Below are positions 9,892 through 11,357 of a stretch of DNA of 64,000 nucleotides, one piece after another. This DNA comes from an uncultured Erysipelotrichaceae bacterium. Its GTDB lineage: Bacteria > Bacillota_I > Bacilli_A > Erysipelotrichales > Erysipelotrichaceae. Below the pieces are notes generated by a model. The model was not told the origin of the DNA. It searched no databases and saw only the letters and a program-made list of their open reading frames with translations. Each line of letters opens with the position of its first letter. The stretch's first letter is position 1. A program made the position numbers and the translations under genes. The stretch spans positions 1-64,000 of the forward strand of contig CALVBC010000025.1 in assembly GCA_944325685.1 (NCBI GenBank), in the 5' to 3' direction.

Positions 9892-11247
9892 TCAGATAGT
9901 GAAGAAATATCCTCCTGTCTTTTTAGATCCTCTATATTCGATCTTATCATTGATCTTTCTTTTGATCGAATTTCTTATTTTATCTTCACTTGCAATTATA
10001 CCTTCTGTTGCGAGCTTATTTTTGATCTCAGAAACTTTTATTCCTTGGTTTTCATATATCACCTTTAGGATGCTGAGATCGAAGTCATTTATTTGGTCAT
10101 TTATTTGGTCATTTATTTGGTCATTTATTTGGTCATTTATTTGGTCATTTATTTGGTCACCATTTGAATACAATAAATTTGGTAATGTTACATAGAAAAA
10201 ATTATGTGTTGCTTCAAATATTGGCTGTTTTTCTTGATCTTTATATGCATCAAGTGTCCTAGGTATTCCAGTTCCAAAATTTTCGATCAAACCTAACTTA
10301 TCAAAAATATTTACCAACTTATGATTGCGGTATGTTTGTGTTCCTTTCATTATTTCTTCCATGGTAGCATTAAAGATCCCACCTGGGCTCATTATCCTAC
10401 AGTGATCAGCATAAAACTCTATTTTGATATTTGACCTTATAAAATAATCAGCATGTACAAAAGCATTTAAGATCATTTCTCTTAGTGATGCTCCTGGATA
10501 TGACGCTATTTCTTTTCTTTTAAAGGTCCTAAAATCGATCTTGGCGGAGATATTATTTAATCTATCTGCTTGCTCTTTTACTTTATCATATATATCGATA
10601 AGTGATCCTGTGAATTGTTTTTTCAGAATAAAGTTCCTATCTTTATCGTATTCAGCGAATTTAACAGTCACATCTGATTGATCTGATAAAATAAAGCCCA
10701 AATTAGAAAATCTCCCATCATGTTTTTTTATCCCTAAAGAAACCATATTCCTATCAGTTAGTTCAATATTGTTTTCTTTAAAAGCTCTGTCTAATGCTTT
10801 AAATGTCAGATCTTGCTCTTGCGATACATCTTCTTCATAGATGTAATTTTTAGATTGCATGATCATTGTTAATATTTCATCTTCAGAAGCTTTTCTAGTA
10901 CTTCTTCCAAGACGCACATATACACTTGCTGGTCTAGGTCCTTTTTCTCTTAAATAATAAGGACGAGATCTCCCCATCTTAACATCAATAACCAAAACAC
11001 CGTCACTATTAAAGCGATACTTGATCAGTCCTGTTGGTAGTGGATAAATAACATCATGCATCCAATTATCTATCTTTGTATCATTTATATCTTGGTCTTC
11101 TTTGATAAATGGTTCATAAAGACTACCATCATCATTAACACCGACATATATGGTACCATCCATAGTATTTAAGAAAGCAACGATAGCATTCTTAACACCT
11201 TCTGATAGATCTTTTTTTAGTTCATTCTTTTCATTTTCTACATACAT
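9892..11247 (-). CDS. AlbA_2 (Schlafen-type) / HATPase_c_4 regulator with DQIN repeats and winged helix
   Basis: A 451-residue protein of the COG2865 type. The N-terminal AlbA_2/Schlafen-like domain (ELKKDLS, then AIVAFLNTMDGTIYVGVNDDG) is followed by a GHKL-like ATPase part (REMILNAFVHADYF, SPGGIF, NFGTGIPRT), a linker of six DQIN units, and a C-terminal winged helix (residues ~375-451). Such proteins are usually treated as transcriptional regulators or stress/defence-associated. The 12-bp DNA unit behind DQIN equals each arm of the perfect 13-bp inverted repeat in this gene's promoter, which suggests autoregulation. GGAGG precedes the ATG at an ideal distance. It is alone in its transcription unit. 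Confidence 0.85.
   Translation of the reverse strand: MYVENEKNELKKDLSEGVKNAIVAFLNTMDGTIYVGVNDDGSLYEPFIKEDQDINDTKIDNWMHDVIYPLPTGLIKYRFNSDGVLVIDVKMGRSRPYYLREKGPRPASVYVRLGRSTRKASEDEILTMIMQSKNYIYEEDVSQEQDLTFKALDRAFKENNIELTDRNMVSLGIKKHDGRFSNLGFILSDQSDVTVKFAEYDKDRNFILKKQFTGSLIDIYDKVKEQADRLNNISAKIDFRTFKRKEIASYPGASLREMILNAFVHADYFIRSNIKIEFYADHCRIMSPGGIFNATMEEIMKGTQTYRNHKLVNIFDKLGLIENFGTGIPRTLDAYKDQEKQPIFEATHNFFYVTLPNLLYSNGDQINDQINDQINDQINDQINDQINDFDLSILKVIYENQGIKVSEIKNKLATEGIIASEDKIRNSIKRKINDKIEYRGSKKTGGYFFTI
10088..10159. repeat. Six perfect 12-bp tandem repeats inside the AlbA_2 gene
   Basis: TTTATTTGGTCA is repeated six times without a mismatch and encodes N-D-Q-I in register on the minus strand. 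The same 12 bases form both arms of the promoter palindrome at 11262-11309. Perfect conservation at synonymous positions implies either recent expansion or selection on the DNA itself. Confidence 0.97.
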
Positions 11248-11261
11248 AATGTTTCCTCCGT

Positions 11262-11309
11262 TTTATTTGGTCATATTTATATTTATATTATAACAGATGA
11301 CCAAATAAA
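11262..11309 (-). promoter_or_regulatory. AlbA_2 gene promoter with a 13-bp inverted repeat equal to its coding repeat unit
   Basis: TTTATTTGGTCAT (11262-11274) and ATGACCAAATAAA (11297-11309) are a perfect inverted repeat 22 bases apart. On the minus strand a consensus TATAAT (with TGT before it) lies between the arms. A weak -35 (TGAATT) is close to the upstream arm. A protein bound to both arms would cover the promoter. Confidence 0.85.
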
Positions 11310-11330: not shown

Positions 11331-11357
11331 TTTTAAAGGTTGCCGTTTGGCAACCTC
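11331..11357 (-). terminator. Terminator of the feo operon
   Basis: AGGTTGCC (11337-11344) pairs with GGCAACCT (11349-11356). The minus strand then reads TTTAAAAAT. It lies just past the small Cys-rich gene. Confidence 0.75.

Follow-up and report, generated by a model that had tools for sequence, protein, structure and literature searches.

Operators can lie inside coding sequences. Intragenic auxiliary operators such as lacO2, for instance, consist of one site within the target gene and can form a loop with the promoter. In the F plasmid, RepE binds inverted repeats located between the promoter and the repE reading frame, through which it represses itself, as well as direct iterons that titrate and loop (PMC13028717). 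The O protein of phage lambda, which consists of a DNA-binding domain, a flexible linker, and a partner domain, has four of its binding sites inside its own coding sequence, the lambda iteron being an 18-bp hyphenated palindrome that is bound by a dimer and starts replication (PMC6022878).

The gene described here lies in a stretch of 64,000 nt analyzed as a whole (the window). TrlG of Photorhabdus (PMC7554251) and DIP2311 of C. diphtheriae (3lmm) share its AlbA_2 plus HATPase_c_4 core, 3lmm being the closest solved architecture. TrlG mediates growth arrest at raised temperature and belongs to an operon with a predicted separate regulator, TrlR (PMC7554251); we found no description of an array there. 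The winged helix is missing from the sampled relatives that adjoin TrlF or belong to comparable operons on plasmids (L246, L249), the ATPase domain being the last one in these proteins. In the literature on COG2865, AlbA_2, HATPase_c_4, and intragenic operators, covered mostly outside subscription journals, we found no report of such an array, nor of coding tandem repeats that equal a gene's own operator and co-evolve with it.

The gene, its repeats, and its promoter

The gene occupies positions 9892–11247 on the minus strand, as do all its features below, and encodes a protein of 451 residues with AlbA_2 (Schlafen-type), HATPase_c_4 (GHKL), and C-terminal winged-helix domains, as judged from the open reading frame, Pfam, AlphaFold, and Foldseek. 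SLFN_AlbA_2 (PF04326; E 5.9e-15, 56.3 bits, cut-off 25.3) covers residues 4–120 (10888–11238) and HATPase_c_4 (PF13749; E 9.9e-17, 61.2 bits, cut-off 26) covers residues 272–355 (10183–10434). These are the sole Pfam domains reaching the cut-off in the protein; neither a winged-helix match nor a Rep-family initiator domain was found at that level. In the AlphaFold model, computed together with 18 relatives, the winged helix spans residues 388–449 (9901–10086) and consists of three helices and two strands, with block mean pLDDT values of 84–90 over residues 391–450. The third helix, residues 421–430 (9958–9987), is the putative recognition helix, assigned from the model and from the sequences of relatives. 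Linker residues 363–384 have a pLDDT below 50 and correspond almost exactly to the repeat array. The clear Foldseek match is 3lmm (E 4e-19), also reached by a profile search (E 1e-4). The domains, the winged helix, and the similarity to a solved structure all place the protein among the COG2865-type SLFN_AlbA_2/HATPase_c_4 regulators.

The 12-mer TTTATTTGGTCA occurs exactly eight times in the 64 kb, compared to a mean of 0.02 in shuffled windows, none of the 100 shuffles reaching eight. Six copies lie head-to-tail at 10088–10159 and two are inverted, at 11262–11273 and 11298–11309. The preliminary description had counted the same eight copies, six in frame and two as promoter arms, and an exact search confirms this number, although they lie within 1.22 kb rather than 1.4 kb. 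On the sense strand of the gene, the unit is TGACCAAATAAA, which is read as (N)DQI, and the six perfect direct repeats encode a (DQIN)6 linker. The inverted arms extend to 13 bp and flank the TATAAT −10 box (11287–11292). The upstream arm (11297–11309; TTTATTTGGTCAT on the gene strand) lies just upstream of the −10 box, with a spacing that is kept in close relatives, and the downstream, inner arm (11262–11274; ATGACCAAATAAA on the gene strand) lies between the start site and the ribosome-binding site, in the same sense as the coding repeats, its end being 2 bp from the GGAGG box (11255–11259). The arms had been taken as the only inverted repeat of the promoter, but there is a second one upstream: a GGTTGCC/GGCAACC hairpin at 11338–11355, between the feoB-like gene and the AlbA_2 gene and 28 bp beyond the outer arm, which is probably the terminator of the upstream feoB-like gene.

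In the host genome (1.36 Mb), a single further exact copy of the 12-mer was found; it lies where two convergent genes meet rather than at a promoter, so that the exact 12-mer reveals no second target or regulon in this genome. The paired operator pattern TTTGGTCA-N18-34-TGACCAAA is unique in the host genome. When one mismatch is allowed, the genome contains 27 copies including these eight, versus 7 for the reversed pattern, and the 19 copies outside the gene are possibly weak extra sites or an effect of base composition.

The gene is chromosomal and stands alone between lysS and feoB. Congeners retain the feoB-like gene, and the stretches retrieved from them showed neither lysS nor a copy of the AlbA_2 gene next to it. 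This absence, together with the patchy distribution of relatives (129 of 273 family genomes have one), fits horizontal acquisition. Of 268 family genomes, 10 contain the array pattern (control: 0); two of the matches fall outside the known members and are remnants of this gene. Many relatives are frameshifted or fragmentary (L032/L076, L074, L085, and L261, among other loci), some of them keeping the array or the operator, and these remnants reflect a fast turnover of the gene. A phage origin was considered and rejected: viral contigs contained neither a relative nor the array, and 10 unannotated faecal phage-like contigs contained distant homologues only. PADLOC returned only partial Argonaute-associated matches, through the shared domain. 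The distant homologues L246 and L251, on plasmids of E. coli and Pseudanabaena, lie inside type I restriction-modification/methyltransferase operons with TrlF-like, HsdS/HsdM, or toxin-antitoxin genes as neighbors, and the E. coli homologue has no winged helix.

Coding units and promoters among relatives

All 20 testable repeat-bearing genes of the window's clade have their coding unit, or a visible variant of it, in their own promoter. The units differ within this clade (DQIN, DPIN, DSIN, and SPNK) and the arms shift along with them. In DQIN genes (TGACCAAATAAA), the arms follow the pattern TGAC[CTA]AAATAAA; DPIN, DPIT, and DPVN genes, whose coding units begin with TGACCC, have TGACCC arms; and the two arms of the DSIN gene L062 are exactly its two coding units, TGACTCGATAAA and TGACTCTATAAA. 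In the SPNK gene (L077/L028), the array consists of TCGCCAAATAAA and the arms are TCGCCAAATAGA/TCGCCAAATAAA, the latter being the inner arm; DQIN and SPNK are encoded by nearly the same DNA in different reading frames. TGA is a stop in the SPNK frame, which may be the reason why the site became TCG there. The variant TGACTAAATAAA, present in several promoters, would read as a TAA stop in the DQIN frame, and a decayed gene copy in genome G237 carries such in-frame stops. Throughout the window and its close relatives, the arms are 24–26 bp apart with the −10 element between them, forming a candidate inverted operator that overlaps the core promoter. In L053, L054, L055, and L057, the coding units keep the consensus whereas the promoter arms deviate. 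L157, also from this clade, has neither coding repeats nor operator.

We extended the comparison to 68 full-length genes with coding tandem repeats, taking 200 bp as the promoter of each gene and at least 11/12 identities as a match. A match to the own promoter was found in 28/68 genes, all with a shuffle p≤0.05 (3.4 expected), versus 3/68 for the downstream 200 bp, 1/64 for the region from −400 to −200, and 7/340 for other coding windows; these counts involve predicted start codons, many draft genome bins, relatives that are not independent, and thresholds that we chose. On the tree of the repeat genes, the window's clade shows a match or weak match in 20/20 genes and the NVRL/NVGL/GAIS clade in 9/9, the other matches being scattered. 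Independent lineages with a match have other units, namely NVRL, NVGL/NVGV, GAIS, DTVS, KVGD, and NDKI. The sequence shared between the coding array and the promoter is AATGTCCGTTTG in L111, ATGTCGGT with its continuation in L112, L114, and L216, ATGGCGCAATAA in L115 and L137, CTGTAAGTGATA in L118, GTGGGTGAT in L237, where it forms inverted arms in the promoter, and AATGATAAGATA in L240 and L241, which have several promoter copies (five near-identical ones in L240). The array period is 12 bp in 80 of the 85 arrays in the family.

The match is absent in the large sister clades GTVN/GEIN, GEEN/DTEN/EHPD, GTQD/VPQD, and VTEK, and the restriction-modification-operon relatives L250 and L251 have coding repeats with no matching site nearby. 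The preliminary description had proposed this comparison of COG2865 relatives and had regarded homologues without a promoter match as evidence against its idea. Such homologues make up about half of the repeat-bearing ones, all of them in other clades, whereas within the window's clade the match is complete. At the sequence level, the correspondence between promoter and coding array is clade-wide and recurrent, but not family-wide.

An unselected test of exact 12-mers common to promoter and coding sequence in 182 genes placed 29 of 47 shared events in the linker, a window representing 15% of the coding sequence, versus 3 of 29 for the downstream-region control. A hold-out set defined beforehand gave mixed results. 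The close NVGL members L291 (10/12) and L292 (11/12) agree, L291 being a weak hold-out because it is nearly the same gene as L213/L293, seen earlier; the distant L310, L316, and L318 show no promoter match, and the L305 gene is truncated.

Promoters can also carry direct-repeat arrays (period 8–12 bp, p about 0.01), which are present in 32 of 102 genes without coding repeats versus 6 of 80 with them (Fisher 8e-5). L170 has AAATGTCACC three times in its promoter and two copies in its linker, 10 bp apart, read as MSPN and then VTK. In L236, L243, and L321, TTTTCTGGTTG forms arrays in the promoter, and the linker contains its reverse complement; these reversed sites read T-R-K and Q-P-E (L236, L243) or T-T-K and Q-P-E (L321). 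Linker sites in two frames and in both orientations exclude a protein-level cause in those relatives. Promoter arrays of 9–12 bp direct repeats, such as GATTGACCC (three copies), CGAGATTTCC (six copies), and ATTACTAGGAAA (three copies), were seen in relatives without coding repeats (L037, L040, L041, L044, L045, L048–L051, L224, L229, L298, L322, and L329).

Codon constraint and covariation with the recognition helix

Codon use was compared between the repeats and the rest of the same genes in 26 near-clade genes and fragments. Asp is encoded by GAC in 91/91 cases in the repeats versus 134/636 elsewhere, and Ile by ATA in 79/80 versus 299/874; copies within one gene are not independent and slippage, which homogenizes tandem arrays, inflates within-gene identity, but the bias is nonetheless present in nearly every gene. 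The constraint lies on the DNA rather than on the encoded residues.

The sequence of the recognition helix in the window's clade is [IV]RN..KR where base 6 of the unit is A, and [IVL]KN..KR where it is C; SPNK genes have RYSLKT. The residue that tracks specificity in this way is Arg425 of the window's protein (9973–9975). In the inner promoter arm, base 6 is A in 14/14 Arg genes and C in 10/10 Lys genes, and in the frameshifted L076, whose best-paired arm is TGACAC, it is still C. On the tree, Arg/Lys changed twice (bootstrap range 2–2), both times together with base 6. The covariation is perfect, yet it rests on two events and is not strongly replicated. More broadly, the array unit correlates with the winged helix when core identity is controlled (partial Spearman 0.30, p 0.0005), a value that linkage alone could give, as the array adjoins the winged helix, and that is not proof of binding.

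L197, L200, and L205 have cores that are 95–96% identical, winged helices that are only 45–58% identical, and different arrays. When L233 is included, the cores are 87–96% identical, the winged helices and arrays differ, and the promoters share an unrelated conserved ..GGTTATAATTAACCTAGCTAAGAAAGCAGGTG.. sequence. This pattern looks like the swapping of cassettes at the linker.

The perfect synonymous identity of the repeats had been seen as fitting selection on DNA or recent copying from the operator. The GAC and ATA counts support the former, while recent copying is not favored, given that arrays and arms have co-diverged over proteins of 50% identity. The idea that DQIN is a by-product is strengthened by the same codon constraint and by the independence of the sites from frame and orientation. 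As for the central idea, that repeats and arms are DNA sites of one kind, which the gene's own winged helix most likely reads, it agrees with the promoter matching, the codon constraint, the helix covariation, and the frame and orientation independence, but it does not extend to the clades without a match.

Proposed mechanism, alternatives, and known systems

We consider it probable that the gene encodes an autorepressor whose operator array lies partly inside its own linker-coding DNA, the sites being read by its own winged helix. From the sequence comparisons we infer binding, repression, looping, and relief of repression as follows. The C-terminal winged helix would bind TGACCAAATAAA, and a dimer bound to the inverted pair, whose members flank the −10 box at a distance of about 24 bp from each other, would block RNA polymerase. 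The six linker-coding copies would add cognate sites to this system and would most likely serve as an auxiliary intragenic operator, reinforcing repression either by a loop to the promoter, with which the separation of 1.1 kb is compatible, or by blocking elongation. The DQIN repeat would largely be a by-product of DNA sites kept in a disordered linker. Repression would presumably be relieved when the ATPase or AlbA domains sense a stress. Since TrlG, the one studied relative that we located, mediates growth arrest (PMC7554251), tight self-repression of a costly effector seems plausible.

Our second choice for the coding array is pure titration, in which it would serve as a decoy for the repressor, setting a threshold or acting as a copy-number sensor, with no part in repression itself. 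This appears rather unlikely. The four genes with consensus coding units and deviating arms would be expected if decoys bind tighter, and RepE is reported to be titrated by the F iterons (PMC13028717), but the coding CAA/GAA may be kept simply because TGACTAAATAAA gives an in-frame TAA stop, as in the G237 remnant. Moreover, genes lacking a coding array more often have one in the promoter (32/102 versus 6/80), suggesting that the two kinds of array have interchangeable operator roles, which slightly favors an auxiliary operator over a pure decoy. A cause at the protein level, i.e., a four-residue linker repeat expanded by slippage with a coincidental or only historical resemblance to the promoter, would account for the 12-bp period (80/85 arrays) and for the many clades whose repeats have no promoter match. 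It is nevertheless improbable in view of the same DNA being read in different frames (SPNK and DQIN; L170, L236, L243, L321), the codon constraint, the promoter-specific matching with flat controls, and the disorder and variable copy number of the linker.

That gene conversion merely transfers sequence between promoter and linker, without any regulatory role, is very improbable: the near-identical multi-copy arrays of some promoters (five copies in L240) point in this direction, but passive copying is expected to produce neither the constant 24–26 bp inverted arms around the −10 box over proteins of about 50% identity nor the covariation with the recognition helix. AlbA-type domains are capable of RNA binding, and in the window's clade the downstream arm, as part of the leader, has the same sense as the transcribed array, so that the protein might bind its own mRNA. 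We regard such RNA sites as equally remote, as the upstream arm is conserved yet not transcribed, the promoter copies of L111 lie upstream of the likely −10 box, and the linker sites of L236, L243, and L321 are reversed relative to the promoter array. Another host factor might read both sites in place of the encoded winged helix, and distant clades in which the arrays change under a shared promoter could be controlled by another regulator. This is scarcely probable, since the site is confined to this gene genome-wide, the units vary from gene to gene both inside a genome and across genomes, and the site is tracked by the Arg/Lys residue of the recognition helix that the gene itself encodes.

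Beyond the preferred autorepressor reading, we tentatively suggest a portable specificity cassette, in which each winged helix would carry its own cognate operator array in the linker DNA. If so, a cassette exchanged between near-identical cores would bring its autoregulation along even ahead of any adaptation of the promoter. This would account for the clades with a conserved but unmatched promoter in which the array and the winged helix differ jointly.

If the autorepressor reading is true, the DNA and not the protein would explain one class of tandem protein repeats found in a widespread bacterial family: the repeats would be regulatory sites concealed in a reading frame that stay matched to a promoter at a distance of 1 kb and to one residue of the recognition helix. 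The relatives would provide natural matched pairs of protein and site for reading the winged-helix recognition code, replacement of Arg425 by Lys being predicted to shift the site preference toward TGACCCAATAAA (base 6, A to C). Coding tandem repeats elsewhere would also be worth checking against their own promoters.

As with RepE and the F iterons, an inverted operator is paired with a direct array; however, the F iterons lie outside the reading frame and serve replication, whereas here the gene is a chromosomal AlbA_2/GHKL/winged-helix gene with no sign of a replicon in the list of open reading frames. The locus resembles lambda O in having repeated candidate sites for its own protein inside its own coding sequence, and the lambda O/iteron principle would, if our reading is true, extend to chromosomal regulators. 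Unlike in lambda O, these candidate sites are direct 12-bp repeats that equal the arms of the gene's own promoter, and the units diverge together with that promoter. Compared to lacO2, the putative auxiliary operator is a tandem array, and it lies in the regulator's own gene, where it encodes the linker.
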